Assembly (NCBI RefSeq): GCF_024347615.1
Contig: NZ_AP025508.1
Span: forward strand, 3,410,001 to 3,474,000
Direction: 5' to 3'
Source of the DNA: Vibrio splendidus
GTDB taxonomy: Bacteria; Pseudomonadota; Gammaproteobacteria; Enterobacterales; Vibrionaceae
Length of the DNA: 64,000 nt
Positions within the stretch are counted from its first letter, which is position 1, and each line of letters opens with the position of its first letter. Of the stretch, positions 3,348-30,596 are shown in pieces. The notes under the pieces were generated by a model. The model was not told the DNA's origin and ran no database searches. It was given only the letters and a program-made list of their open reading frames with translations. A program made the translations under genes and the position numbers.

Positions 3348-4156
3348 TCAACAATCACAGGTGTAACGACACTTCGGATAAGTTGAGCAGCCATAGAAGC
3401 TCTTACCTGAATTAACGCCCCTTTTAGCAACACGCATCACAAGCTTAGATTGGCAACTAGGACAAACTCTATGTTGAACAGCTGACACGGCCTCAGACTC
3501 AGGTATTACTGGTTTATCCAGAAAACTACGTCCAACTTCGACCATGTGGACCAGTTCACTACCGTTAACCAACCACAAGCGCTTATCGACAGCGAAGGCA
3601 ATCGCTTCTGAAGTAAAGTCGCCTGATGTAACAATAATCATCTTACTGGCATTGTTAGCGACCATACTCTTAGAACTTGTACGCCTACTTTACGTGCCTT
3701 CCAGTGCTTACATTGTACAAGACTTAACTCCCCTTCTTTCGTCAGCCAAATATCAACACCACCATCGGGCTTCTGAGAGAAAGATTGTTTGACCTTATAT
3801 CCTTGAAATTTAAAGTACTCACCAATGTAACTTTCAAACTCAATCCAACTTAAGTCATTCAACGGTGAAGTGTTCTTGCGAACTTTAATTTGAGAACTTG
3901 TCGTTAGATAACTTTGCTTTCTTTTGTACTGTTTAAAGAAAGCTATCGGCGCAGGGAGTAAAAATAGAAAGGTAAAATAGGGGGCCATCAAAGGAAGGTT
4001 GGGAGCCATAGCGTTAAAGATAAAATTATCACTGCTAGCTGCTAAGCTAGGTAATAGATATGAGAGCCCTAGGTATATAACACCAGCGAGCAACACACTA
4101 AGCCACCATGGAGCATCCATTAAGCGCCATATAATTCCATCTTTACGTCGTGCCAT
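3348..4156 (-). pseudogene. frameshifted Mrr-like restriction endonuclease with zinc finger
   Basis: Two minus-strand frames together make one protein. The first (3638-4156) has two membrane helices near residues 17-37 and 55-75, then the nuclease core DGGVDIWL ... SLVQCKHWK, a PD-(D/E)xK signature of the Mrr_cat fold. The second (3348-3665) continues with NNASKMIIVTSGDFTSEAIAFA, the usual next block of that fold, and ends with a topoisomerase-type C4 zinc finger (CPSC ... CSTYPKC). At the junction near 3665 the expected residues between VQVLR and MVANN are missing and the frame changes, which fits a short deletion. It was probably a membrane-anchored DNA-cleaving defence protein and is now inactive unless the two halves can work separately. 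Confidence 0.7.
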
Positions 4157-4425: not shown

Positions 4426-5016
4426 CTACTCTTTCGCTCTATCTTCAACGAACGCTTCATCCCACAAGCCGCCCCGTAACTCAACATCCTCTACATGACC
4501 AAACTTGTCAGCAAACAAAACCGTGGCATGTAACTCATGCTCTTGTCTTTTAGCTGAGATTTGTTGATCTGTTAGGTCTTTATATTGCTTTAAGCTCTTT
4601 TGTTCACGTGTCCACTTGTTATTCAGAGCCGTCGCCTTTTCCTCAATCCAGTTTTTTTTGCGCATTGCATCTTGTTCAATTGGCAATGCTTCCGTCACGA
4701 CTTGATACCCCGCACCTATTAGATCTTTCTTCATGTGGTCTATATAGGTAAAAAGCTCCCCTAATGAAAGCCCCTTGGCTTCACACAAGGTATGAAGCTG
4801 CGCGATGTTAAATGCCGAACTACCACTTTCCAGACGAGAATAAAACGCACCTTTAACGCCAAGTAAATCGGCATATTCTGCTTGTTTGGTTTTAGTTTTA
4901 ACTCTTTTCGTTAAACCCATACCCAACACAAAATCGCAGCCATACATTCTTAGATCTTTTACCGCTTCTGATATCAGCGTAAAGATACTTACTTTTCCTA
5001 CGACCTTTGACTTCAT
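4426..5016 (-). CDS. HTH (XRE-like) repressor with helical tail
   Basis: A 196-residue protein whose residues 43-90 form a lambda-repressor-like helix-turn-helix (KQAEYADLLGVKGAFYSRLE ... LHTLCEAKGLSLGELF). The remaining 100 residues are charged and helical with no known domain. It is transcribed away from the operon that starts at 5156, and the 140-base gap holds a good promoter. That divergent layout is the classic one for a phage-like or plasmid-like repressor that controls the replication operon and itself. The region upstream of the HTH may mean the true start is M24 or M33 rather than M1. The role as repressor is inferred from position. Confidence 0.7.
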   Translation of the reverse strand: MKSKVVGKVSIFTLISEAVKDLRMYGCDFVLGMGLTKRVKTKTKQAEYADLLGVKGAFYSRLESGSSAFNIAQLHTLCEAKGLSLGELFTYIDHMKKDLIGAGYQVVTEALPIEQDAMRKKNWIEEKATALNNKWTREQKSLKQYKDLTDQQISAKRQEHELHATVLFADKFGHVEDVELRGGLWDEAFVEDRAKE

Positions 5017-5077
5017 ACTTGCCTCTCTAACTCAGAATTGAAATTTTAACGCTGCGGGAATTTTTTTCAATTATTTA

Positions 5078-5107
5078 TTGACATAACTGAGCTACAAGTC
5101 GTAATCT
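5078..5107 (+). promoter_or_regulatory. promoter of the replication-like operon
   Basis: TTGACA at 5078-5083 is followed after 18 bases by TAATCT at 5102-5107. It reads toward the operon beginning at 5156 and lies in the divergent gap with the HTH repressor, a sensible place for repression. A second possible -10 (TATAAT) lies about 25 bases further on. Confidence 0.5.
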
Positions 5108-5155
5108 TTACCTGAAAAGCTTACCCTATAGTTATAATTTCAAGTAGAGAATAAT

Positions 5156-5794
5156 ATGAATGACATTCTAAAAACTATGGTTACGGATGAAGACAACTCT
5201 AACCAAGAGTACCTCTTGCACGGCAAACGCATAGCCTATGTTGCGGCTTGCTTAGCTTACAACCGTAAAGAATTACCACTGCATTGGGTTCGTTTGTTTA
5301 CGGAAAATGAGGATCTCTCTTACGGTGATGGAGGGGGAACACCTATTGCCGTCATGACGGTACAACGCGTAGCAGAATATGAAAACAAAGGCGATGAACA
5401 CATTGAATTCTATTTCAATGAAAAATTACATTTAGCCTCTAACACCATTAGCCGTGAAGGCGACGTGTTAACCATTGATACCGTTCATCAATTAGGTCAC
5501 GCAAGAAAGATATTTACCTGCACACATGACTTAAGCACCACTCAAAGCATACCTAATTCAATTTATGAGGCAGTGGGCTACGCAAGTAAAGATCTGCCTT
5601 TTTACCACCCGCATGCCATCGAATTCTTTTGTGCCTCCACTTTTTCATTGGCCAGCGAATGCTTCGACTATGTTGATTTTGCTGATGGTCAGTCATTTTA
5701 CTTTGATGCTGAACGTGCATTAACCAATGATTTCTCCCAATCAGATTCGTGGGAGCACCTGATTGATGCGCTAGAACCGATTGATACGCCTTAA
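5156..5794 (+). CDS. hypothetical protein, first gene of replication-like operon
   Basis: A 212-residue acidic soluble protein (starts MNDILKTMVTDEDN) with no recognisable domain, signal peptide or membrane segment. AGAG lies a few bases before the ATG. It heads a same-strand run of four genes with gaps of 59, -1 and 50 bases, so it is almost certainly co-transcribed with the Cys4 protein, helicase and polymerase. Position suggests a replication accessory or initiator role, but no motif supports this. The acidic composition would also fit a DNA-mimic or protein-interaction role. The family is not recognised. Confidence 0.6.
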   Translation: MNDILKTMVTDEDNSNQEYLLHGKRIAYVAACLAYNRKELPLHWVRLFTENEDLSYGDGGGTPIAVMTVQRVAEYENKGDEHIEFYFNEKLHLASNTISREGDVLTIDTVHQLGHARKIFTCTHDLSTTQSIPNSIYEAVGYASKDLPFYHPHAIEFFCASTFSLASECFDYVDFADGQSFYFDAERALTNDFSQSDSWEHLIDALEPIDTP

Positions 5795-5853
5795 CGCCTT
5801 AACCACTCAAACAGAAAAAACTTCCTTTAAAAACTAGATAGAGAATAAGAAAC

Positions 5854-6480
5854 ATGACAACTGAACAAAAAACAATAAGCAATCATGGGCGCAACCAGAA
5901 AGGCACACATGAAGATATCTTTGGGCCTGATGCTGCTAACCTGCCCACATACGCTCAACCAGATTTCCTCTTTAACACCCGTTTGAACGAGGATGGATGT
6001 ACGATCTCTTTCGTGATGAATACTTTTGAAAAAGTGTTCTTCCATTACCTAGACACACCTGAATTTAAAGGTTTTGCGCAATGCAATGGCTGCAAGGATT
6101 GCTCGCTATGCGAGGCAGGCATTAAGCTAGACCATCGCATTTTGACACCGGTGTATAACTTCTTCGAAGGACGCATGGAAGTTCTGGCTATTCCACCAGC
6201 AATGAAGCCAACATCTCTAGCTCCGCAGCTAAAGCCGTTATTTAGCAAGAGTGGCCTGATGATTAGCATCACGAAAAATGGCTACCAGTACGAAGTGACT
6301 TCAGCTGATATCATGGAAGGTATGGGCATCGACGGCGATAAGGTATTGGCATTTAAAAATGCCTACGACAATAACGAGTTTTCGCTAGCAGACATCTACG
6401 AAATAAAAAGCAACGAAGAGCTTGAAGACATTTCGCAAATTAAGACACGCCTATTCCTGAAGCGTGGCCGCGCAGCCTAA
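5854..6480 (+). CDS. Cys4 protein, possible ssDNA-binding protein
   Basis: A 208-residue protein with an evenly spaced cysteine cluster at residues 77, 80, 83 and 86 (CNGCKDCSLC), able to hold zinc or an Fe-S centre, followed by HRILTPVYNFFEGRMEVLAIPP, which has the beta-strand pattern of an OB-fold-like core. The tail is acidic in part (SNEELEDISQ) but ends basic (LFLKRGRAA). A zinc-containing single-strand DNA binder in the style of phage gp32 would fit its place directly before helicase and polymerase genes. This is inference: no strict family match was recognised. Its TAA overlaps the helicase ATG (TAATG), which implies translational coupling. Confidence 0.55.
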   Translation: MTTEQKTISNHGRNQKGTHEDIFGPDAANLPTYAQPDFLFNTRLNEDGCTISFVMNTFEKVFFHYLDTPEFKGFAQCNGCKDCSLCEAGIKLDHRILTPVYNFFEGRMEVLAIPPAMKPTSLAPQLKPLFSKSGLMISITKNGYQYEVTSADIMEGMGIDGDKVLAFKNAYDNNEFSLADIYEIKSNEELEDISQIKTRLFLKRGRAA

Positions 6481-8321
6481 TGACTGGTGACAACCAACTG
6501 ATTGACGAGGCTGAGGGCCTCGTTAACTTCAGACTTAAAGAAAGCGCTGAGGTTATTCTTCAGCACTGCCTAGAGCACCAGAACGTTGTCGTTAACTGGC
6601 AAGTTGGTGTCGGTAAGTCCTATAACATGGATCAAGTGCTCGAAGCAGCCATTCGACAAGGCCAATACGATCTTGTGATTGTCATGGCTCCTACCCGTAA
6701 GATCATCGATGAGCGTAAGATCATCGATGAGCGTAAGTTCATCGTAAACCCTCCTAATGACATTGAAGTTATCAATATCCGCCCACGTCCAGTCAACCTG
6801 TGCGGCGAAGAACGCAACAAAGTATGGCAATCTTATGAAGCAAGGAATTTAAGTCACCTTGGTAAACGTCACTGCTGTGATTTGTGTCCTAAGCGCTCAG
6901 AGTGCTTCTGGCCTAGCCAATATGGGAAAGACCTGCAAGGTAAGCAGGTAGTGTTTGCAACCCAAACGCACCTTGAGCGAAACCCGTACTTCATTACTCA
7001 TGTAAAACAGCAATCTAACGCTAGGAAAGTGCTGGTCATATTTGATGAAGCCAATGTCAGCCTAGCTAATTATAGCCGTACTCTTACCGTAAGCTCTATT
7101 CGCCAACTCATGGAAGCAACGAGTAAATCAGATGTATCAAGCAAGCATAAATCAGTTATTAGTCACTATTTAAGCTGTCTACTAGATGCACCTAGTGAAG
7201 ATTTACAAGATAAAAACGCTTGGCACTTCCCTCGCCTAAGCACTAATGACATGACGCAGATCTTAACCATTGGCGACGAGATCTTTGGTGATTCATTCCA
7301 CAACATCATTTACGACTTACAAGCTTTTGGCGATTCCAGTGCTGAATCTCGCGAGAAATTACCGAACGGTGATATCCGCTTTCCCGCATCTCCTTTGACC
7401 TCTACAAGTGATGTACTGCTCTACAGTGGTACCAGCCACCTATCCATTTTAAAGATGCGGTTAGGTATTGATTTCTACTCACCTTACGACAATTACGAGT
7501 TTAAAGGTGAAGGGACGACTTGGTTGAATCTTGCTTCCGCTACGGGTGCTAGTTCTAATTTCATTAAGAACGCACCACAAATCTTAGACGCATTCACGCA
7601 GCTAACAATACTACGCATACGTGAAGGTAAACGAATTCTACTTGTCTCGAAAAAATCTCATGTTGGCTACTGCGTGAAAGCAATGAACCAGATGTTAGTA
7701 GAACAAGGTGTAAACGATATCCGTGTAGTTCACGGTGAGCATTACGTGGAGAATCCCGATATAACATTGGTTCCTGTCATCCACTATGGCGTGATTGGTA
7801 TTAACCAGTTTGAAGAGTTTGATTGTTGCTATTGCCTTAACAGCTACTACGTGAAGCAAGGAACGCTCAGTGATTCAATACAAGACCTTCGGGCTGATAG
7901 TGAGCGAATTGATGTAGCAATTACATACTCGAAAAAGCCACGTCGTCGCTATGGCGTCGTGGCTGATGATAAATACCGATTTACAGATGTAGCCGAGGTA
8001 GTGAACCCAATGCTACAAACCCTAGAAATGGGTTGTGTCATTCAAGCTGTGGGCCGTGTACGTCCATTCACTAAGACTCGTGAAGTTATTACCTTTCAGA
8101 GCAATGACCCTTTAGGTACGACTTACGACAAAGAGTTCTCGAACTTAGCAGAATTGCGCAAGCACTTCGGACTAGCGACCAAGCGTACACGTAGCAGTCA
8201 TTCTACGGCTGATAATGTTAGAGCTCTCAGCGCCAAAAGCCTCAAACAAGCTGAAATAGCAGAGCAGTTGGGTATCAGTGTGCGCACTGTCCGCCGCCAT
8301 CAATCCAATATGAAAGCCTGA
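6480..8321 (+). CDS. SF2-like helicase with Cys cluster and C-terminal HTH
   Basis: A 613-residue ATPase. Walker A is GVGKS at residues 43-47, a motif Ia-like MAPTR at 69-73, and a DEAD-type Walker B FDEAN at 188-192. Between them are cysteines at about 108, 132, 133, 136 and 142 (HCCDLCPKRSEC), the position where XPD/DinG helicases carry their Fe-S domain. A helicase C-terminal region with QAVGRVRPF (motif VI-like) is near residue 525. The last 30 residues form a helix-turn-helix (QAEIAEQLGISVRTVRRH). Translation is coupled to the previous gene. It probably unwinds DNA for the polymerase encoded next. An 18-bp tandem duplication lies in motif Ia. Confidence 0.75.
   Translation: MTGDNQLIDEAEGLVNFRLKESAEVILQHCLEHQNVVVNWQVGVGKSYNMDQVLEAAIRQGQYDLVIVMAPTRKIIDERKIIDERKFIVNPPNDIEVINIRPRPVNLCGEERNKVWQSYEARNLSHLGKRHCCDLCPKRSECFWPSQYGKDLQGKQVVFATQTHLERNPYFITHVKQQSNARKVLVIFDEANVSLANYSRTLTVSSIRQLMEATSKSDVSSKHKSVISHYLSCLLDAPSEDLQDKNAWHFPRLSTNDMTQILTIGDEIFGDSFHNIIYDLQAFGDSSAESREKLPNGDIRFPASPLTSTSDVLLYSGTSHLSILKMRLGIDFYSPYDNYEFKGEGTTWLNLASATGASSNFIKNAPQILDAFTQLTILRIREGKRILLVSKKSHVGYCVKAMNQMLVEQGVNDIRVVHGEHYVENPDITLVPVIHYGVIGINQFEEFDCCYCLNSYYVKQGTLSDSIQDLRADSERIDVAITYSKKPRRRYGVVADDKYRFTDVAEVVNPMLQTLEMGCVIQAVGRVRPFTKTREVITFQSNDPLGTTYDKEFSNLAELRKHFGLATKRTRSSHSTADNVRALSAKSLKQAEIAEQLGISVRTVRRHQSNMKA
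6696..6731 (+). repeat. 18-bp in-frame tandem duplication in the helicase gene
   Basis: CGTAAGATCATCGATGAG occurs twice without interruption and adds a second RKIIDE to the protein just after motif Ia. A third, diverged partial unit (CGTAAGTTCATCG) follows. The perfect identity points to a recent slippage event. Confidence 0.85.
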
Positions 8322-8371
8322 CTCCATTAACTATGGGGGAATAATTCCCCCCTCTTACGAGGATTATACAA

Positions 8372-10339
8372 GTGGACTTACTTCCAGGAATTGAGCAACA
8401 CTTTGCACCAGCCAAGGAAAAGAAAACATCTATCTCTGTATTACCTAGAAACCCTAACTTTACCAGTGGGGGGACTACACATATCAATACACAGCAGGGA
8501 GTGGTTGACTTCATTGACCTAACGTTACAACTCCCTATCAGCCACATTGGTGTTGATTGCAAATATAGTTATAGTACTACTCATGTAACCTTACCCAATG
8601 GTTACGAAAAACATGATATTTCAGCGATTCATCCAACTAAGCTGTGCCTGTCACTTTGCACTAATGATATGGTATCGATAGAGCAGCATACATTCATCAT
8701 TGATTTAGTATCAGGTATTGACGTCAGTCCACTACAAGCACTGTTTGACTTACCAGCAACCTTTGTTGCTTACGATGCTAACAAACTGGTGCATTGCCTC
8801 TGGGCTTTAGAGCTTAATGAACCATTCCGTATCTGGGACATACTGATTGCAGAGAAAGCTCGCTACCTTGGCCTGCATCAGTTCAATAAATGTGAAGAAT
8901 TTGACAACTTAGTGGCCAAAATCGAGGCTAAAGATAGCTTTGCTGTGGAACGTGAGAATTTCTATGGCTTTAAAGCAACTCATTCCCGTTACTACCTAGA
9001 GTTCCCGTTGACTGGGTATACCGGAACGTTGTGCGAAGAAGTCGCTAAATTATACTTGTTACAAGTTCAAGCTGTTGTAATACAAGGTATCCATAACCAC
9101 CTACTGGAAGTCGAAATGCCTTGGATTGTTACCAATGCAGCAATGGAGCGAAATGGCGTCCTTGTGTCTCGTGAGCAATGCATGAAAGTTCTAAACGGGA
9201 CAAAGGCTAAACTTGCTCAGTGGAAGTCCGAACTTGAAGTCTATGGCTTAGCAAACCCTAGCAGCACTGATGAGAAGATCGCCTTCTTTAACGCTCTTGG
9301 CTTGCTACATCACTTTAAAGAAGGCAACGACTATAGCTTCGACCGTGAAATGCTAAGTGCTAACTACGACTTACATCCCGCCATCAAGTTGTTAGCAAAA
9401 TACTCGAATATGGTTTCAATTTCTAAGGATGTAATATTAGAGCGAGGAATAATTGGCTCTGACGGTCGCATCCATCCAGTACACAAGCACCTAGATACCG
9501 TAACAGGCCGACAAGCAACAATGGCTCCTAACCTCCTAGGGTTACCTGCCGTTCTTCGCCCCATCGTTGTTGCACCTGAAGGCTATGGTATTGGCGAGGT
9601 TGATCTTGCTCAGATTGAGGTAGCGATAACGGCTGCTGTGTATAACGATAAAGACTTGATAAAGAAGTATAATGCAGGAGATTTATACACAGCATTAGCT
9701 CAAGAGTTCTATTTAGATGAACTACCGATGGAGTTCCAATCCTGTACACCTGACATATTCAAAGAACACCACAGCGATAAGCGTAACGTGATGAAAGAGT
9801 GTACTTTAGGACTCATTTATGGAATCACAGCCTACGGCTTATCTAAGAAACTCAAAGTTCACGAGGTTAAAGCCCAGCAGTTAATGGATAAGTTTCTCAA
9901 TATGTTTCCTACCCTCGGTAAGTCTATGGATTTAGCACCACAATATGGTTTTATTCGTGGCTATGTGAGTACAGCAACGGGTCTACAACGGTTACGTCCC
10001 CAAGATACTGAACGTAACCGCAAAGAAAAGAATTGGATGGTCAACATGCCAGTGCAAGGCACTGCTGCAGCCTTGTTTAAAGTCTCGGGCAATCGTCTAC
10101 ATCAATTATATAAGCGCCATAATGCTAAGTTGATTGTCGCATTACATGATGCTTTTGTGTTTGAGGCCCCAGCAGAAGAATTAAAGGGAGTTGCGAGCCT
10201 GACGTCTCAGGTAATGATTCAGGTCATTCAGGAGCGCTACCCTCAACTAAACATCCGAACAGACATCAATACGTTACAACCTACATGTTGGAATAAAGAT
10301 GGCAATGTAAACACCATTGAAGAGTGGCTACACAAGTGA
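8372..10339 (+). CDS. family A DNA polymerase
   Basis: A 655-residue PolA-type polymerase. Motif A is GEVDLAQIEVAI near residue 411, motif B is KECTLGLIYG near 474, and motif C is ALHDAF near 590, so all catalytic carboxylates are present. The first 200 residues sit where the 3'-5' exonuclease would be, but the usual DxE, N/D and D motifs are only faintly recalled (GVDCKYS, VAYDANKL, RIWDILIAEKA), so proofreading may be reduced or absent. There is no 5' nuclease domain. It starts at GTG 8372 with GAGG nine bases before. Unlike the host polA it belongs to a mobile replication cluster, as in T7-like phages. Confidence 0.85.
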   Translation: MDLLPGIEQHFAPAKEKKTSISVLPRNPNFTSGGTTHINTQQGVVDFIDLTLQLPISHIGVDCKYSYSTTHVTLPNGYEKHDISAIHPTKLCLSLCTNDMVSIEQHTFIIDLVSGIDVSPLQALFDLPATFVAYDANKLVHCLWALELNEPFRIWDILIAEKARYLGLHQFNKCEEFDNLVAKIEAKDSFAVERENFYGFKATHSRYYLEFPLTGYTGTLCEEVAKLYLLQVQAVVIQGIHNHLLEVEMPWIVTNAAMERNGVLVSREQCMKVLNGTKAKLAQWKSELEVYGLANPSSTDEKIAFFNALGLLHHFKEGNDYSFDREMLSANYDLHPAIKLLAKYSNMVSISKDVILERGIIGSDGRIHPVHKHLDTVTGRQATMAPNLLGLPAVLRPIVVAPEGYGIGEVDLAQIEVAITAAVYNDKDLIKKYNAGDLYTALAQEFYLDELPMEFQSCTPDIFKEHHSDKRNVMKECTLGLIYGITAYGLSKKLKVHEVKAQQLMDKFLNMFPTLGKSMDLAPQYGFIRGYVSTATGLQRLRPQDTERNRKEKNWMVNMPVQGTAAALFKVSGNRLHQLYKRHNAKLIVALHDAFVFEAPAEELKGVASLTSQVMIQVIQERYPQLNIRTDINTLQPTCWNKDGNVNTIEEWLHK

Positions 10340-11546: not shown

Positions 11547-12134
11547 CTAAATCAAACCTTTAAGAATCTCATCGGCATCGAGCTCATGAATCGTTAACGA
11601 TGCTTTTACTTTATCGACAGCTAAAGACCAACTGCTAAGCTTATTCCTTGCAGGGTAAGCAGCACTGATAAACGCAATCATAGCTGTAGGGCTCAATTTA
11701 TTCACTTCCATCTCAAGAAGAATATCACTAACTGTCGAGTACTGTTTTTCGGAAAATAGTCGCTTAATCCCTGATATCAAAGGCAGTACTTCTTTAGCTG
11801 TATGTGCCGAGTTCCCAATATCATAAAAGTCTTTTAACCAAGGTAGCTTCTGTACAACAGAGTCATCTAATAGAACATTTGTCTTATTAAACTCAGCCCA
11901 AATCGTACTATCTTCATATTGATTTTGAATAGACGACGCAATATCTGGGGTAGTTTGAAAGCCAGATACCATAAATAGTGAAGCTGTAATTGCAGCAACA
12001 GCAACTTTACTCAGCGTATCACTATTCGATTCGTTCAGGTTTGAGGGCTTCGTATAGCTGCTCAGTAAGGCACCATTGGAAAAAGTCTCTAGCCTTGATG
12101 TTGGCTGCTGATAAGAATTTGCTTGCAGCGTCAT
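11547..12134 (-). CDS. small membrane protein in TIGR04255 operon
   Basis: An unrecognised protein of about 195 residues starting MTLQANSYQQ at 12134, with GGGA about 11 bases before the ATG. A longer start at 12170 is possible. Residues 38-55 (SKVAVAAITASLFMVSGF) are a probable single membrane helix or uncleaved signal; the rest is helical. Its first 38 codons overlap the end of the TIGR04255 gene in another frame by 113 bases, an unusually long overlap, and imply translational coupling. It lies 6 bases before the hydrolase-like gene. It could anchor the complex at the membrane; no function is known. Confidence 0.6.
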   Translation of the reverse strand: MTLQANSYQQPTSRLETFSNGALLSSYTKPSNLNESNSDTLSKVAVAAITASLFMVSGFQTTPDIASSIQNQYEDSTIWAEFNKTNVLLDDSVVQKLPWLKDFYDIGNSAHTAKEVLPLISGIKRLFSEKQYSTVSDILLEMEVNKLSPTAMIAFISAAYPARNKLSSWSLAVDKVKASLTIHELDADEILKGLI

Positions 12135-12810
12135 AATCAAAAATCCCTTCGTTATAGTAATCGCTATCAATCATAAAGCACTGCTCTTGAGATTGAGCGT
12201 GATTAACAATTGTACAACTTACATTCATTTTTGCGTTTTTATCAATACTATCAAGTGCTATAGAAAAATTAGATTGAGCTCCTAAAATCTTACTCTTAGA
12301 TAACTCTTGATCTTCAAATACTGATACCAGAGGAGCATTAAGCAGTTCATTCCATGAATGGCTTATATAGTCCTCACCGAGCAAACTTCTTTGAATAACA
12401 TCTTTGTATCGCAGGCCAACGCGCTTAATAGGAAGCATCATACCAAGTTCAACTAGTGCGCTATGAAGGCAATCTATATAGCCAAAGAAAGCTTCTTTCG
12501 ACTCATACTTAGTCGTAACAAAAGCAATAGAGTCAGTGTTAATTATGGCTCGAACTGTTTCATCAAGTGATGCAAATTCATACACAGGGTTCTCTATTTG
12601 AGTTACCGACTGAGTATCTGCATTCACATCCAAGCTAACATTTTTAGATCTCTTAAATAAAGGAAGTCTATCCTTTATTAAAGTATGTAGCTTAACGAGT
12701 CTATCAGCATCCTCGATTCCATCTACTTGAGATACAAAAACAAACTGGCATACGACTTCAACCAAGGGATCATTATGGAACCTTACCCGAGGCTTATCTT
12801 CAAAAGGCAT
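12022..12810 (-). CDS. TIGR04255 family protein
   Basis: A 262-residue protein with the hallmark start of the sporadically distributed TIGR04255 family: basic PRVRFHNDPLVEVVCQFVF at residues 7-25, then IKRVGLRYKDVI near 135 (family consensus GLRYxN), and a closing DFFQWCLTEQLYEALKP like the family's F(E/D)W-xT-xxL-xxLKP tail. Members have no known activity and are scattered among bacteria, often in variable DNA. It starts 16 bases after the regulator gene's stop and overlaps the next gene. Recognition is good, function open. Confidence 0.7.
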   Translation of the reverse strand: MPFEDKPRVRFHNDPLVEVVCQFVFVSQVDGIEDADRLVKLHTLIKDRLPLFKRSKNVSLDVNADTQSVTQIENPVYEFASLDETVRAIINTDSIAFVTTKYESKEAFFGYIDCLHSALVELGMMLPIKRVGLRYKDVIQRSLLGEDYISHSWNELLNAPLVSVFEDQELSKSKILGAQSNFSIALDSIDKNAKMNVSCTIVNHAQSQEQCFMIDSDYYNEGIFDYDAASKFLSAANIKARDFFQWCLTEQLYEALKPERIE

Positions 12811-13165: not shown

Positions 13166-13371
13166 TTCATCTAAGCTTTCAAACCTTACTCTCTTCCCGT
13201 TTGAACTGTTGACTCTGCTATCTCCAATTAACTTACCTACATCATTGTCATCGCTATATTCATGCTTTTACTTATCAGAGCTTTCCATACTTGAGCTAAT
13301 TCGCTTTTGGCTATTTTAGCTCTGCCAGCAACTCATTTATGTCCAAAAACAATTCAGCATCCATAAAACAA

Positions 13372-13431
13372 GTAAAAAGCGGACTCGAAACCTTTAAATA
13401 TATTACTTTAGGCCCAGTGTCCGCTTTTTAC
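13372..13431. repeat. dispersed stem-loop element, copy 4
   Basis: Perfect 13-bp arms GTAAAAAGCGGAC / GTCCGCTTTTTAC enclose a 34-base loop with the family motif TTAGGCCCAGTGTCC on the right and AAACCT on the left. The A/T ends could also make it a two-way terminator. It lies beyond the start of the TIGR04255 operon. Copies 3 and 4 enclose the replication module and that operon (9 kb). Confidence 0.6.
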
Positions 13432-13732
13432 TCACATAGCGATACGCTCTTGATACACCATCTGTGGTTTTATCTCGCGCCAACCTTGTGGAACCAACGT
13501 TTGATATAAGTCTTGAATTGCTTGCGACCAAAGGAATCGTAACCACCTTTATTGGCTAGACCATTGCGGAAGCAAGACCAAAAATAGTTACGTAGGTAAG
13601 CGCTGCCTTTCATCGGCCATACTTTTTCTCGTATTGATAAATACTGTCTTCAAGCACAGTCAAATATGCACTCATATTGCCGTTCTTAAGTTCACTTGTG
13701 TTGTGCTCGATAATCTTACTGAAGTTTTCCAT
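13432..13732 (-). pseudogene. broken small gene, two frameshifts
   Basis: From ATG 13730-13732 the minus strand reads MENFSKIIEHNTSELKNGNM, then SAYLTVLEDSIYQYEKKYG and a stop. The next frame continues VWPMKGSAYLRNYFWSCFRN and GLANKGGYDSFGRKQFKTYI, and a third frame ends LVPQGWREIKPQMVYQERIAM. Each part looks coding and they join naturally, so a protein of about 100 residues has been broken twice. The family is not recognised. It abuts stem-loop copy 4. Confidence 0.6.
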
Positions 13733-14478: not shown

Positions 14479-14733
14479 TTATTGTGCTTTACCTTTCGGG
14501 GTATCTGAGGCGCATTTCGCCGTATCCATTACTTTTCCATTCATGGTTCCACAGGCATCGGCATACCACTCAATGCGAGCTCCCGACAGAGTGTAAACTT
14601 GTTTCCCTGCTGTTCCATTCCAGGATTTTTCTATCTTCGAGATATCGCCCGGATTACCACTGAACGTACCACCTGCGAATGCCGGAGATGCGAATAGCGA
14701 AGTTAGACCTAGCAGGATGATTGATTTTTTCAT
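14479..14733 (-). CDS. small secreted (periplasmic) protein
   Basis: An 84-residue protein with a clear Sec signal peptide: MKK, a hydrophobic core (SIILLGLTSLFASP) and cleavage probably at AFA|GG (residue 20). The mature part has two cysteines (DACGTMNGKVMDTAKC) that may form a disulphide, and aromatic residues in a short repeat-like SWNG/EWYA pattern. It would act in the periplasm or outside. AAGGAAA precedes the ATG. No family recognised. Confidence 0.65.
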   Translation of the reverse strand: MKKSIILLGLTSLFASPAFAGGTFSGNPGDISKIEKSWNGTAGKQVYTLSGARIEWYADACGTMNGKVMDTAKCASDTPKGKAQ

Positions 14734-14991: not shown

Positions 14992-15882
14992 ATGCGTAGA
15001 ATGAAAGAGCATGACAAACTAGCGAAACGACTTGGCATTATCCTTACCCGTTTGAATACAGGTGAGAAGTTGCATCTAGATGATTTAAGTCGTGAATTTG
15101 GGGTAGCAAGAAGGACGTTAAATCGTGACTTCAATGAACGGTTAAATTACCTACCTATACAACGTGACGGAGCTTGTTACTCGTTAGACCCTAAGTTCTT
15201 AGGCAGACAGACCAATAATGAGCTATCTCTCCTACTGTTAAACATGGGATTCGATACGTTGTTTTCGGGTAAGCACTATCTAAGTAATGGCGTATTAAAC
15301 AACAAAACCACACCACCCTTTCTCTTCAAGAACCCACAAATCGAGGACATTAGTGAATGTGCTTCGGTGTTCGAGAAACTTATCGAATCGATACAACGAC
15401 GAAACGTGATTAGCTTTAGCCATGAAGGAAAAACCTACGATGAGTTCCACAGCTACAAATTAGTAAATGACTCTGGCTACTGGTACATCGCTGGGACACA
15501 GAGAAACTGCCTAGAGCCTCTCAGAGTGGCTAAGATTCGTGAGTTAGTGCGTTACGAGGATAAATACTCTCCTGACCCTAGCGTTGAGCAGAAGCTAACT
15601 GGTTGTGGATATGAAGATGAACGACTCAATCCCGTTGAAGTCCTTATACAGATGAGCGCTAAAGTCGTGGAAGCTTTCTTAAATGAAGGTAATGCCGATG
15701 ACTTCAGGGTGTTAAAAGAGTTAAGTTCAGGGCAAGTGCTTGTTAGTCACCAAACCAAGAACATTCCAGAGTTACTACGCCAACTTAAAACGTGGCTACC
15801 TCATGTGGAGGTGCTCTCACCTGATTGGATACGTTACTTGTTGAAGCAAGTGCTCCAAGTTTATATGGACTCAACCAAGTAG
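14992..15882 (+). CDS. WYL-domain transcriptional regulator
   Basis: A 296-residue protein. Residues 5-60 form a DeoR/HTH_11-like winged helix (LDDLSREFGVARRTLNRDF). The middle region carries the WYL-domain strand SGYWYIAGTQRN with conserved LEPLRVAKIRELV after it, and a C-terminal WCX-like extension follows. WYL proteins sense nucleotides or nucleic acid and often control defence or DNA-damage genes in mobile islands (BrxR/CapW type). M4 at 15001 is an alternative start. It stands alone between a divergent secreted-protein gene and a non-coding gap, so its target is not evident. Confidence 0.75.
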   Translation: MRRMKEHDKLAKRLGIILTRLNTGEKLHLDDLSREFGVARRTLNRDFNERLNYLPIQRDGACYSLDPKFLGRQTNNELSLLLLNMGFDTLFSGKHYLSNGVLNNKTTPPFLFKNPQIEDISECASVFEKLIESIQRRNVISFSHEGKTYDEFHSYKLVNDSGYWYIAGTQRNCLEPLRVAKIRELVRYEDKYSPDPSVEQKLTGCGYEDERLNPVEVLIQMSAKVVEAFLNEGNADDFRVLKELSSGQVLVSHQTKNIPELLRQLKTWLPHVEVLSPDWIRYLLKQVLQVYMDSTK

Positions 15883-19443: not shown

Positions 19444-19872
19444 CTAATCCACCGTGACTTTTATCTCATCAAAGCAGTCCATTCCGATGTAGCTTAGAAA
19501 GTTGGTTTCCCACATCGAATAGAACTCAGCGACACTGGATTCAGTAATGGAAACTTCACCCATGTATCGGATGTAAGCCACCCCATGACCAAAATCAAAG
19601 TCGATTTCTTTCTCTAGTTCAGGCATCAATCCACAGTAACTAAAGTCAGTGATGTAATCAAAAAACCATTGGTCATTAAGCCTAGTGATACGAATCTCGA
19701 CAGGGTGATAGCCACCATTTTCTGGGCTGTAAGATTTCTGACGGAAAGAAAAGACGATCGATTGGATCATAGGTGTCCATTTGCCTGATTCGCTGATCAC
19801 TCGGTTTAAAGTATCTTGAAGATCGACACTGACAGGTAAAGTCAGCTTATTCTTTGAAAAGCATAGTTTCAT
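19444..19872 (-). CDS. DUF2787 family protein
   Basis: A 142-residue protein with the family's features: IVFSFRQKSYSPENGGYHPV, then EIRITRLNDQWFFDYITDFS, YCG..PELEKEIDFDF, and a closing FLSYIGMDCFDEIKVTVD. DUF2787 proteins are common in vibrio mobile DNA and have no known function. No signal peptide or membrane helix. A degenerate copy of its C-terminus is at 17844-17911. The gene is followed by its own terminator and preceded by two same-strand hypothetical genes of the integrase-proximal operon. Confidence 0.8.
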   Translation of the reverse strand: MKLCFSKNKLTLPVSVDLQDTLNRVISESGKWTPMIQSIVFSFRQKSYSPENGGYHPVEIRITRLNDQWFFDYITDFSYCGLMPELEKEIDFDFGHGVAYIRYMGEVSITESSVAEFYSMWETNFLSYIGMDCFDEIKVTVD

Positions 19873-19974: not shown

Positions 19975-20475
19975 TTATTTAGCTTCGTTTTCACCGTCCA
20001 CTAATGACAGGAGTTCATCACGACGTTGCTCGTAGTCAGGCGCAAGAACGTGGAGAAATACCGATTTCTCTGACGGCAGGATAAGTAATAACCCACGCAG
20101 TGCCGCCGCCATAAACCCAGCATTATTAGCAGACCCACCTTTGAACACAGATTTAAGTACAGTGCTTTTAAACGGCTTGTCGTCTTGCTCATTTAACACA
20201 GCGACGATATCTTCAAAGGCTGCCCACTCTTTACTATGAAGACCGCCACCTTCATTACCCGAAAGTCTAAGGAATAGAGCATTTAGATCATCATGTACCG
20301 AAAGCTCATAGAACACATGATTCTGAGTTTTCGGTGATAACTTTTTCGCTTTGCCTTCGAGCACGATATTAGTGAAATGGTCTACTGGATTATCGTCAGT
20401 AACCGTGACTTGTTCAGTACCCCCTAATACTTCAGGTTGAACGACTTCTTCTTTTTGATTGGTTTTACGTGCCAT
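19975..20475 (-). CDS. conserved-looking hypothetical protein
   Basis: A 166-residue soluble protein (MARKTNQKEEVVQPE...). The first 45 residues are polar and acidic and probably disordered. The rest is helical with a glycine-rich centre (FKGGSANNAGFMAAALRGLL). GGAGG lies just before the ATG. It sits between the DUF2787 gene (102 bases downstream) and another hypothetical gene (45 bases upstream), all on one strand, so an operon is likely. No family recognised. Confidence 0.6.
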   Translation of the reverse strand: MARKTNQKEEVVQPEVLGGTEQVTVTDDNPVDHFTNIVLEGKAKKLSPKTQNHVFYELSVHDDLNALFLRLSGNEGGGLHSKEWAAFEDIVAVLNEQDDKPFKSTVLKSVFKGGSANNAGFMAAALRGLLLILPSEKSVFLHVLAPDYEQRRDELLSLVDGENEAK

Positions 20476-20520: not shown

Positions 20521-20904
20521 TTAAGATTCAGCTTGATCAGCAAGCTTGACGACAGGGAACGTTGGACTGTTTATTGGAGCGCAGCAATACACTCCACTAC
20601 CAACCGTAGTGACAATGGCAACAGCAAGTAGCCAAGGGCATTCATCATCGTTTAGTAATAAAACCCATTCAGGGTAGTTAGTAACAAAACGTAGAAAGCT
20701 TTGATCACCTTCCGATTCTTTACTCAAGGTTTCATCGGTATCGGACTCCTCAATCAAGTACAAAGTCGTACCGACCTCATCCCAGAACGCTTTCGTACTT
20801 TCTTCATCACCGAATGGTTCTATTAGATGCTCTAGCAGTTTTGCTTTCACACCATCAGGCATTGGCAATGATTGAATATCTTCAAACTTGTTTACATTTT
20901 TCAT
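20521..20904 (-). CDS. hypothetical protein
   Basis: A 127-residue acidic protein starting MKNVNKFEDIQSLPMPDGVK, with AGGAGAAAA shortly before the ATG. A hydrophobic segment near residues 91-105 (LLAVAIVTTVGSGVY) could be a membrane helix or a buried core, and a CC pair follows it. A strong terminator lies upstream, so this gene starts a new transcript that includes the two genes below it. The family is not recognised; acidic small proteins of this kind in islands include antitoxins and anti-defence proteins. Confidence 0.6.
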   Translation of the reverse strand: MKNVNKFEDIQSLPMPDGVKAKLLEHLIEPFGDEESTKAFWDEVGTTLYLIEESDTDETLSKESEGDQSFLRFVTNYPEWVLLLNDDECPWLLAVAIVTTVGSGVYCCAPINSPTFPVVKLADQAES

Positions 20905-21005: not shown

Positions 21006-22259
21006 TCATTCCCAACGTATCTCTGGTTTCGCAGTCACCATATCCGACAAACGAGAACCAATTTCTCGCCTACGTCCAACGGTCAATTTTGAGTAGCGCC
21101 TTGTGGATGAAAGGTCAGCGTGATTCAACTGCTTGGCTATGTCGTGTAACGAGACTCCTTGGCTAGCTAACAAACTCCCAACCGTATGACGAGCACTGTG
21201 TAGGGTTAGATTCGCTTTATCACCGGGTATGTCAGGCAGTCCCATCTTGGCTTTGATAGCCTTGAAGGCATGCCTAGGCTGCCCTACAGATTTACCCCTT
21301 TTACGTCCAGGAAAGAGATAGGGGTTATTCGTCACATGAGGCACTGACCTCAAAATCTCAAGCATGTAATCACTCAAATAAATAACATGGCTACTACCAT
21401 TTTTCGTTTGCGGAATAGTGAGTGTTTTCTCCTCCCAATTCACATCGGATTTTAATCTCAATCGTAATTCACTATCGCGTAATCCGGTCAAAAACAGAAT
21501 AATTAGGTATGCCCCAATACTTTTATCTTCATGATTGAGAGCATGACCTATGAACTCTTTCAGCTGTACTTCGGTAAAGTAACCAGTGCGGACGTTGTCT
21601 TCTTTCAACAAGCTGACCTTATCAGCAACCAACGGCGCGTCCATCAACTTGTAAGCCTGACGGTTCACCGTTTTCAACAGCGCTAATACACGATTAATCG
21701 TAGCTACAGCATAAGGTTTCCCTGTTGTCTTACTTATAGCTCCCTGCATTTCCATTTGGATCTTAACGATATGTGCCGCCGATAATTCATTAATGGGAAC
21801 ATGAAATATCGACTTAGCATGACGGAACCTCGCTTGATCATCTTTCCAGCTTCGCTTTTGCTTAGCCAGTGGTAAATAGACTTCATTAAAGAACCGTTCA
21901 AGGGTCATAGAATTATCGACCTTTTCAGTATCACGCTCGATCTTCGGATCAATACCCTCAAGAATTTGCTGCCGATATTCTTTCGCTTTCTTGCGCAAGG
22001 TGATTAGGTCAGTGTCATTGAACCGCCCTAGACCGATCGACGCCTTGCGACCAGTTACAGGGCTAGTAAACCTGAATATGAACCTAATTGAACCTGTTCT
22101 CTTCCCCACCAAACACCGTACACCAACAGGTAAGCCGGAGTCTTTCATTGCGGATAGATTGACTTCATAATCGGTGGATTTAGCGTTGGCTGGATTTGGT
22201 TTTAGGTTGTTGAGGAAAGTGGTGGTGAGTCGTTGTGACTTGAGAACTGTTGTCTTCAT
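21006..22259 (-). CDS. tyrosine recombinase / phage-type integrase
   Basis: A 417-residue integrase, full length for the P4-like family. Residues 1-110 hold an arm-binding domain, 118-215 the core-binding SAM-like domain (ERFFNEVYLPLAKQKRSWKD), and the catalytic domain shows Arg261 (TGLRDSE), a Lys near 286, His354-x-x-Arg357 (LHSARHTVG), His380 and Tyr389 (RRYSKL), so it should be active. It cuts and rejoins DNA at an attachment site, probably a tRNA end. It ends the mobile part before the AbgT gene. The nearby tRNA-Leu is 7.6 kb away rather than adjacent, so the element's exact ends are unclear. Confidence 0.9.
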   Translation of the reverse strand: MKTTVLKSQRLTTTFLNNLKPNPANAKSTDYEVNLSAMKDSGLPVGVRCLVGKRTGSIRFIFRFTSPVTGRKASIGLGRFNDTDLITLRKKAKEYRQQILEGIDPKIERDTEKVDNSMTLERFFNEVYLPLAKQKRSWKDDQARFRHAKSIFHVPINELSAAHIVKIQMEMQGAISKTTGKPYAVATINRVLALLKTVNRQAYKLMDAPLVADKVSLLKEDNVRTGYFTEVQLKEFIGHALNHEDKSIGAYLIILFLTGLRDSELRLRLKSDVNWEEKTLTIPQTKNGSSHVIYLSDYMLEILRSVPHVTNNPYLFPGRKRGKSVGQPRHAFKAIKAKMGLPDIPGDKANLTLHSARHTVGSLLASQGVSLHDIAKQLNHADLSSTRRYSKLTVGRRREIGSRLSDMVTAKPEIRWE

Positions 22260-29826: not shown

Positions 29827-29924
29827 GGTATTACTTAATTATTGAGACTTGAAATGCTAATGATATAGTATTGATTTACAACGGATTTTGAATCCGTCGT
29901 GTATACCAATTTCACCATACCGGC
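29824..29924 (-). pseudogene. tRNA-Leu(CAA) remnant, 3' half replaced
   Basis: From 29924 leftward the minus strand gives a normal leucine tRNA: acceptor strand GCCGGTA, D arm GTGAAATTGGTATACAC, anticodon arm ACGGATTCAAAATCCGT with anticodon CAA. Beyond it the variable arm and T stem are lost; only TTCAAGTC of the T loop remains, followed by 16 foreign bases and TACCAGC, which pairs with the acceptor strand at six of seven positions. No CCA follows. Total 101 bases instead of about 87. It cannot fold a T arm, so it is probably not functional. Such 3' damage is typical of integration and excision at a tRNA gene. Confidence 0.75.
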
Positions 29925-29958
29925 ATTATCTTGGGGCGTTGCCCTTTCGATGTCTGGC

Positions 29959-29986
29959 ATTATACGTATGCGAACTGATGTGGCAA
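29959..29986 (-). promoter_or_regulatory. intact promoter of the tRNA-Leu remnant
   Basis: On the minus strand TTGCCA (29981-29986), a 16-base spacer and TATAAT (29959-29964) stand about 34 bases before the tRNA 5' end. This is a strong tRNA-type promoter that has survived the loss of its gene's 3' half. Confidence 0.65.
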
Positions 29987-30119
29987 GTATAAAAACTTGA
30001 ATTCATGTGTGTTTGCCGATAATTTCGCCACTAAGTCATAAGCTGTGCGTCATGTCTCTTTTCACGCCAAGCCTTAGACTATATTCTGACGCCTAAATTT
30101 TTGAAGAAGTAATAACACC

Positions 30120-30596
30120 ATGACATCAACAAACACAATGCCACCAGCAGGAGTAATGCGCCGATTTGGTGCCTTGTTCTATGACGCCCTTATCGTAATC
30201 GCTATTGAGATGCTGGCGGCTGGCGTCATTGTCGCTCTGCTGCATGCGCTCATGGCACTTGGCGTTTTTAACCATAGCGGTTATGCCGATGTTAGTGACT
30301 TCTTGAGCAACCACCCTATTTGGAGCCCTGCATATACCTTTTACTTAGTTGTAGTTTGGGTGTACTTCTTTGTGTTCTTTTGGACAAGAGCAGGTCAAAC
30401 GCTAGGAATGCGAGCTTGGAAACTGCGCATTCAAAACAAAGATGGCTCCGCTATTACTGTAACCCAAGCTCTGATTCGCTTAGGAACCTCAGGATTTGGA
30501 TTAGCAAACTTATGTGTTCCATTCGATCCTCAGAAACGTGGCTTTCACGACATCTGGGCGAAGACCGAAGTAGTAGTGCTACCACAAGCACGATAA
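30120..30596 (+). CDS. RDD family membrane protein
   Basis: A 158-residue inner-membrane protein. The RDD signature is present as RRFGALFYDALIVIAIEML (Arg-Asp-Asp positions conserved in modified form), with helices at about residues 18-45, 67-95 and 115-130, and the family's GQTLGMRAWKLRIQNKDGS before the third. RDD proteins may be transporters or ion-handling proteins, but the function here is unknown. It converges on lptG across a strong two-way terminator and is the first clear core gene after the tRNA locus. Confidence 0.8.
   Translation: MTSTNTMPPAGVMRRFGALFYDALIVIAIEMLAAGVIVALLHALMALGVFNHSGYADVSDFLSNHPIWSPAYTFYLVVVWVYFFVFFWTRAGQTLGMRAWKLRIQNKDGSAITVTQALIRLGTSGFGLANLCVPFDPQKRGFHDIWAKTEVVVLPQAR

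Follow-up and report, generated by a model that had tools for sequence, protein, structure and literature searches.

Pipolins of Escherichia coli are integrative elements that encode a tyrosine recombinase and have their att repeats in a Leu-tRNA gene (PMC7385651, PMC9710591). Their family B DNA polymerases (piPolBs) start DNA without a primer (PMC7385651), and Staphylococcus epidermidis is named among the hosts of plasmid pipolins (PMC9710591). In the staphylococcal cassette chromosome mec (SCCmec), the CCPol-MP pair, in which a family A DNA polymerase (PolA) is joined by a small partner, also starts DNA without a primer (PMC7581432). Pairs of PolA and single-strand DNA-binding protein (SSB) extend across the Bacillota, and replication after excision, second-strand synthesis after transfer, and defence are all given as possible roles (PMC10061031). 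TV-Pols are PolAs of mobile elements, some beside helicases and some beside lambda-type integrases in integration hot spots; they are predicted to be primase-polymerases by in-situ displacement, and the set includes a Vibrio sp. sequence (PMC2579912). What the pipolin and SCC polymerases contribute to their elements is described as unclear or unknown in papers on these systems. In this study, a stretch of 64,000 nucleotides of Vibrio splendidus (the window; NZ_AP025508.1, positions 3,410,001 to 3,474,000), part of a 3.87-Mb contig in a genome of two contigs and 5.88 Mb, was analysed. Three genes spanning 5854-10339, encoding a predicted SSB, a helicase and a PolA (the trio), lie on an island in tRNA-Leu(CAA). 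The trio is read as the replication module of this integrative island and as one of two alternative polymerase units, with a PolA that most likely primes itself together with the SSB; the probability of this reading is put at about 0.6.

The trio is inherited as a unit across distant lineages. The order SSB-helicase-polymerase, part of a four-gene order for which an earlier note on this DNA had proposed a neighbourhood search, was constant in 12 of 13 loci of named genomes, from Vibrio and Shewanella to Planctomycetota. The 13th locus (L013) lies on a 3.6-kb contig, with the polymerase beginning at base 240; of the trio, the polymerase alone was found there. The five open reading frames (ORFs) that the note had placed here (a helix-turn-helix (HTH) regulator, an unassigned protein, a cysteine protein, a helicase and a polymerase) were found as it described. 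Its four-gene replication module was partly retained: SSB, helicase and PolA form a conserved unit on a mobile element, while the HTH gene and the unassigned 212-aa protein are found in some relatives only. By blastp, relatives of the HTH protein occurred in 4 of 15 other loci (G043, G205, L004, and G063) and those of the 212-aa protein in 5 of 15; a partial match in L005 comes on top of these counts, and some loci end short upstream. The conserved core therefore comprises three genes, and, judged from this distribution, the HTH gene and the 212-aa protein are local additions that are not part of the conserved unit.

The polymerase and the helicase were found in the same 7 of 227 congeneric genomes. 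In samples of the family, the helicase was present in 5 of 150 genomes and the polymerase in 10 of 247, one of them a fragment; in the class sample, the helicase was present in 1 of 369 genomes, which was the window genome itself. The distance matrices of SSB, helicase, and polymerase correlated at 0.96-0.97 over 14-15 loci, a level reached by 0 of 2000 permutations; L013, L007 and, for the polymerase, G063 were omitted from this test. Within the six gammaproteobacterial islands alone, helicase and polymerase correlated at 0.95 (1 of 2000 permutations). The backbone protein x19975, used as the marker of the island family, and the integrase correlated at 0.97 over six loci (55 of 2000 permutations), and the trio was uncorrelated with the integrase (-0.12 to 0.01, six loci). 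From these correlations of sequence distances, we read the trio and the integration module as two modules whose histories are probably largely separate.

The marker x19975 occupies 39 places, spread over 30 of the 227 congeneric genomes. In 8 of the 13 x19975 genomes whose island stretches were inspected, a related protein of 896-964 aa was present there, and all five of these proteins that were scanned passed the Pfam cut-off for DNA_pol_B_2. This family B polymerase (PolB) was found in 15 of 227 congeneric genomes. All 15 PolB genomes and all 7 PolA genomes were within the 30 x19975 genomes, and each of the 7 PolA and 16 PolB places was 3.0-12.3 kb from x19975. In G205, a PolB island and a PolA island stand in tandem on either side of tRNA-Leu. 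A PolA island and a PolB island share an integration module with 91% DNA identity. The apparent exchange of two unrelated polymerases in one island family is a natural experiment on the slot, whose function must be achievable by both. That an unrelated PolB takes the place of the trio in sister islands suggests that the island needs a polymerase of its own. Its similarity to the polymerase of an 8-kb S. epidermidis plasmid (E 4e-26), together with its Pfam family, marks the PolB as probably pipolin-like. No description of an SSB-helicase-PolA trio, or of a PolA/PolB exchange in these islands, was found in the literature searched.

Several results weigh against this reading. Fifteen of the 39 x19975 places had neither PolA nor PolB within 25 kb, so members of the island family can lack a polymerase. 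Broken polymerases occur on both sides: the PolB copies of G205 and G209 have one in-frame TAA and five pieces, respectively, and the PolA of G063 is in two pieces (TAG). The hypergeometric chances of the distribution, 3.6e-7 for PolA and 1.5e-15 for PolB, are naive values for genomes that are not phylogenetically independent. A second tyrosine recombinase was found near PolB in G226 (Pfam; L080 9666-10832), in G112, G194, and G038 (weak similarity), and in G205, and PolB may therefore belong to an element nested in the island. The trio and x19975 were weakly positively correlated (0.28-0.30, 8-9 loci), and within the six gammaproteobacterial islands the SSB correlated with helicase and polymerase only at r 0.59 (56 and 93 of 2000 permutations). 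The window copy is a mosaic, with a trio region 91.6% identical to G043 over 7.0 kb and an integration module 91% identical to G205 and G046. Its integrase is of the type found elsewhere on the other side of the tRNA, a type-A integrase inside type-B-like ends; this copy of the island may therefore be immobile. No iteron-like arrays were found in the three stretches searched, nor by a tandem-repeat search over 1-30500.

If the trio is the replication module, the tyrosine integrase would cut the island out of tRNA-Leu(CAA) at the anticodon region, and the island's own PolA would copy the excised circle or its single-stranded form. The gp32-like SSB would coat the template, the DinG/XPD-like helicase, whose activity is presumed and whose polarity is predicted to be 5' to 3' as in DinG and XPD, would open the duplex, and the PolA-SSB pair would prime itself without a primase. 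The earlier note had called the module self-contained; this was not upheld, as the island ORFs examined showed neither a primase nor an initiator. Since piPolBs are primer-independent and the SCCmec PolA with its SSB-like partner is likewise, self-priming would be the likeliest reason for a PolA with an SSB and no primase. In a locus from Gemmataceae (L007), a Prim-Pol protein and a serine recombinase are near the trio, so in other backbones priming may come from elsewhere. A wider, more tentative proposal is that the island family selects a self-priming replicase whatever its fold, either a primer-independent PolB or a convergent PolA primase-polymerase with gp32-like SSB and DinG-like helicase.

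A gp32-like SSB and a self-priming polymerase would fit equally well if the trio made the second strand of an island that enters as single-stranded DNA through conjugation or natural transformation, so that the integrase receives a duplex, with no multiplication of a circle. Second-strand synthesis has been proposed for PolA-SSB pairs (PMC10061031), and the lack of origin-like arrays in the searches above agrees with it. However, a helicase is not needed for simple second-strand synthesis, and no relaxase was found among the island proteins scanned with Pfam, which cover some of the ORFs. This role is considered unlikely.

The earlier note had suggested a replicating satellite or plasmid-like element of an undescribed type with no phage structural, lysis or transfer genes nearby. 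No structural, packaging, or lysis match was found at E up to 1e-3 in 20 island proteins scanned with PHROG. Searches of 50,697 phage and 72,556 plasmid records gave no match to the helicase, and the phage records gave none to x19975, the DUF2787 protein or x20521. The best-covering PolA matches were only about 25% identical in phages and 28% in plasmids, and a pattern-based scan of IMG/VR gave no PolA relative. As far as searched, the trio is thus not a known phage or plasmid system, which supports the note on this point. The DNA is, however, an integrated island with a tyrosine integrase in tRNA-Leu(CAA) and no free plasmid-like element, and it cannot be recognised as a prophage. Derivation from a phage early region, or a phage satellite that would replicate on infection by a helper phage and be packaged by it, was also considered. 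The predicted structure of the SSB is similar to phage proteins, including one from Listeria phage P70 and the D11 protein of Vibrio phage phi 3; the INPHARED PolAs that cover most of the query are those of Listeria phages; and the WYL regulator, DUF2787 protein, x19975, and x20521 match PHROG families without assigned function. However, P70 itself encodes, by annotation, a DnaC-like loader, a helicase, a primase and a polymerase for its replication, which is a different set, and the negative phage searches above also speak against such an origin, which is unlikely.

Defence or DNA repair, with the trio as cargo like the surrounding restriction systems, was weighed as well. Type I restriction genes adjoin distant trios (HsdR in L008 and HsdM in L010), the backbone WYL regulator matches CRISPR-associated WYL models (E 1.9e-16), and defence has been raised as an option for PolA-SSB pairs (PMC10061031). 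However, PADLOC gave for the trio only a reverse transcriptase-associated PolA model (E 2e-35), which might match any family A polymerase, and weak helicase matches. Replication explains the presence of PolB in place of the trio in sister islands better than a specific defence does, and a defence or repair role is very improbable.

The predicted fold of the cysteine protein resembles the SSB core of gp32 of T4/RB69 at a middling Z in a structure search with the model, which supports the suggestion of the earlier note that it could bind single-stranded DNA; gp32 was not among the 21 PDB sequences matched by the SSB profile. Searches of solved structures by sequence alone gave an unrelated best match for this protein (E 0.19) and a match to the HTH part only for the helicase, so fold models were needed for both. 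The SSB profile search gave 165 relatives (best 120 listed, P0178-P0297), many on short metagenomic contigs; this exceeds the 57 listed for the helicase, and many of the 165 may sit in other contexts.

For the helicase, ranks 1-15 of the structure search with the model were all DinG, XPD/TFIIH, or CasDinG entries with 340-495 residues aligned, so the SF2-like helicase of the earlier note is predicted to have a DinG/XPD-like fold. It differs from DinG, XPD, and CasDinG in its C-terminal HTH, and its profile probability to two host DinG-like proteins was low (7 and 30). The four cysteines were kept in 14-15 of 15 relatives and show the DinG/XPD arrangement between motif I and the DE box; an Fe-S cluster is putative. 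At least 57 relatives, with a C-terminal HTH, were found. Databases call some of them (P0122-P0124 and P0155) 'DNA-binding response regulator' or 'HTH transcriptional regulator', perhaps because of this HTH, and leave others hypothetical; the trio points to a helicase family named 'response regulator' or left hypothetical. An 18-bp tandem repeat of 2.7 copies at 6696-6744 in the helicase gene adds six residues compared with aligned relatives, and the model is weak at this insertion (residues 74-79).

The polymerase is a clear family A member (Pfam PF00476, E 4e-44). Its relatives form a small family, from 93% to about 28-33% identity and mostly full length, and the next proteins in the list are of the housekeeping Pol I type. 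The second matching locus in the host genome is only 30% identical to the island PolA. In an alignment with host Pol I, motif A and the R/K/Y residues of motif B were kept, Leu stood at the position of E. coli F762, and motif C was HDA, not HDE; motif names and E. coli position numbers follow standard usage. The faded exonuclease of the earlier note was found again: the exonuclease-like signatures DTE and YAAxDA, kept in several distant relatives, are lost in the window copy and its nearest relatives by motif inspection, and Pfam names no exonuclease domain in this PolA family. Six aligned family members have a 2-residue gap near the thumb-palm junction relative to host Pol I, which, from alignment only, is compatible with a shorter thumb helix. 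Such a helix is proposed as a priming signature of PolA-SSB pairs (PMC10061031). Viral Leu762 PolAs adjoin superfamily II helicases (PMC6302109); these are SNF2-like, so the parallel with the trio is in class, not in kind.

The island borders were determined in the window genome (G000). An intact tRNA-Leu(CAA) is at C1:3393209-3393293, and its first 46 nt recur in the window at the start of the right repeat (Table 1). The left repeat copy (C1:3393248-3393585) is outside the window at about -16.75 kb. The repeat runs from the tRNA anticodon arm through the 5' half into the start of a gene that, by eye, encodes an RDD-family membrane protein. The 338-bp repeats bracket a 46.6-kb island, and the same arrangement was found in G043 (331 bp) and G205 (328 bp). 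The trio islands L003 and L004, of about 19.6 and 18.3 kb, have repeats of 105 and 77 bp over the other half of the same tRNA. A second conserved module consists of the WYL regulator, DUF2787 protein, x19975, x20521, and tyrosine integrase. A compact island of another genus has the order trio, one gene, DUF2787, x19975, x20521, integrase, one gene, tRNA-Leu(CAA), counting ORFs of at least 75 aa and ignoring one ORF that overlaps the tRNA. On an Aeromonas plasmid (L113 11953-15059), an x19975-like protein, DUF2787, and a site-specific integrase are together, so the integration module extends beyond Vibrionaceae and Shewanella.

Table 1. Positions of the features of the island within the window.
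Feature	Position	Strand	Remarks
Mrr-type endonuclease frame, cargo	3348..4156	-	split in two in window
Cro/CI-type HTH regulator	4426..5016	-	BetR/HTH_3, E ~2e-4; divergent from trio operon; some relatives only
212-aa protein, no assigned family, operon gene 1	5156..5794	+	some relatives only
Predicted zinc-type SSB	5854..6480	+	gp32-like predicted fold; conserved H64, C77, C83, C86
SF2 helicase, predicted DinG/XPD-like fold	6480..8321	+	conserved C108, C133, C136, C142 between motif I and DE box; C-terminal HTH
Family A DNA polymerase, Leu762 type	8372..10339	+	PF00476; N-terminal region with faded exonuclease-like motifs
TIGR04255 family protein, cargo	12022..12810	-	family model match
84-aa conserved backbone protein	14479..14733	-	matches in 7 related islands; signal-like N-terminus by eye; no Pfam
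HTH-WYL-WCX regulator, backbone	14992..15882	+	family model matches
DUF2787 protein, backbone	19444..19872	-	Pfam
x19975, backbone protein, no assigned function	19975..20475	-	marker of island family
x20521, backbone protein, no assigned function	20521..20904	-	matches in related islands
Tyrosine integrase 'type A'	21006..22259	-	sole island site matched by three tyrosine-integrase queries
Right terminal direct repeat	29879..30216		338 bp, 99.1% to left copy; starts with nt 46-1 of tRNA-Leu(CAA) at 29879-29924

Further features of the island were recorded. About 380 bp inside the left end, three islands (L016 2671-2697, which is G000 C1:3393671-3393697; G043; and G205) carry an inverted copy of part of the tRNA-Leu (about nt 33-58), which may belong to the attachment site. 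A chaperone-usher fimbrial cluster is present on the left side of the island (L016 8510-13745; Usher, PapD, and Fimbrial matches). The Mrr-type endonuclease, with a zinc ribbon, is in two frames in the window and is a single 273-aa ORF in G043. Two loci from Hydrogenedentes (L010 4621-7104 and L011 2794-5313) have a protein of 827-839 aa without Pfam match upstream of the trio, and in L010 HsdM is downstream. The 212-aa protein had no match in Pfam, PHROG, NCBIfam, or PADLOC. The region between the HTH gene and the operon contained no near-perfect palindrome at the threshold used; a 29-nt inverted repeat at 72% was present there. Short inverted repeats occur elsewhere, for example a perfect 14-nt pair at 13371-13432. 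LexA-like matches in the window numbered 1 against 0.89 expected, and Rfam gave no match over 1-31000.

The island was finally compared with known systems. The PICMI satellite integrates at fis and has int, AlpA, and a DUF3987/DUF5906 primase (PMC10803314), whereas the window island is in tRNA-Leu(CAA), and neither AlpA nor such a primase was found among its ORFs scanned with Pfam. For TV-Pols, D5-like helicases or an N-terminal helical domain are reported, and no nuclease domains (PMC2579912); the trio has a helicase with a predicted DinG/XPD fold and, in relatives, exonuclease-like motifs without a Pfam exonuclease domain. SCCmec CCPol-MP-Cch2 and the Bacillota PolA-SSB pairs have PolA, a small SSB-like partner with an oligonucleotide-binding (OB) fold, and a helicase in one operon on integrative elements (PMC7581432, PMC10061031), and in some PolA-SSB pairs the exonuclease domain is partial. 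The trio combines the same kinds of parts, its OB fold being predicted from the model at middling Z. However, as far as these papers describe, its order is SSB-helicase-Pol, not Pol-SSB-helicase; its helicase has a predicted DinG/XPD fold, not COG3378/DUF927; and its SSB is predicted to be of the zinc, gp32-like type. The recombinase is a tyrosine, not a large serine, recombinase (the distant L007 has a serine recombinase), and the hosts are Pseudomonadota and Planctomycetota, not Bacillota. With pipolins, the island shares integration by a tyrosine recombinase (here the integrase at 21006-22259), att repeats in tRNA-Leu (the 338-bp repeats that start in tRNA-Leu(CAA)), and its own DNA polymerase with variable cargo, and a related PolB is present in sister islands. 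The polymerase differs: it belongs to family A and is accompanied by a gp32-like SSB and by a helicase of DinG/XPD-like fold; a PolB profile search of G000 gave no match at E up to 1e-20. If the island family does select a self-priming replicase whatever its fold, the trio would be a portable, phylum-crossing self-replication cassette of a make-up absent from the literature found. In Vibrionaceae, it also offers a concrete candidate PolA-SSB primase-polymerase. By analogy, the best reading of the module is a PolA-based counterpart to pipolins, presumably functioning in the manner of the CCPol-MP primase-polymerase of SCCmec.

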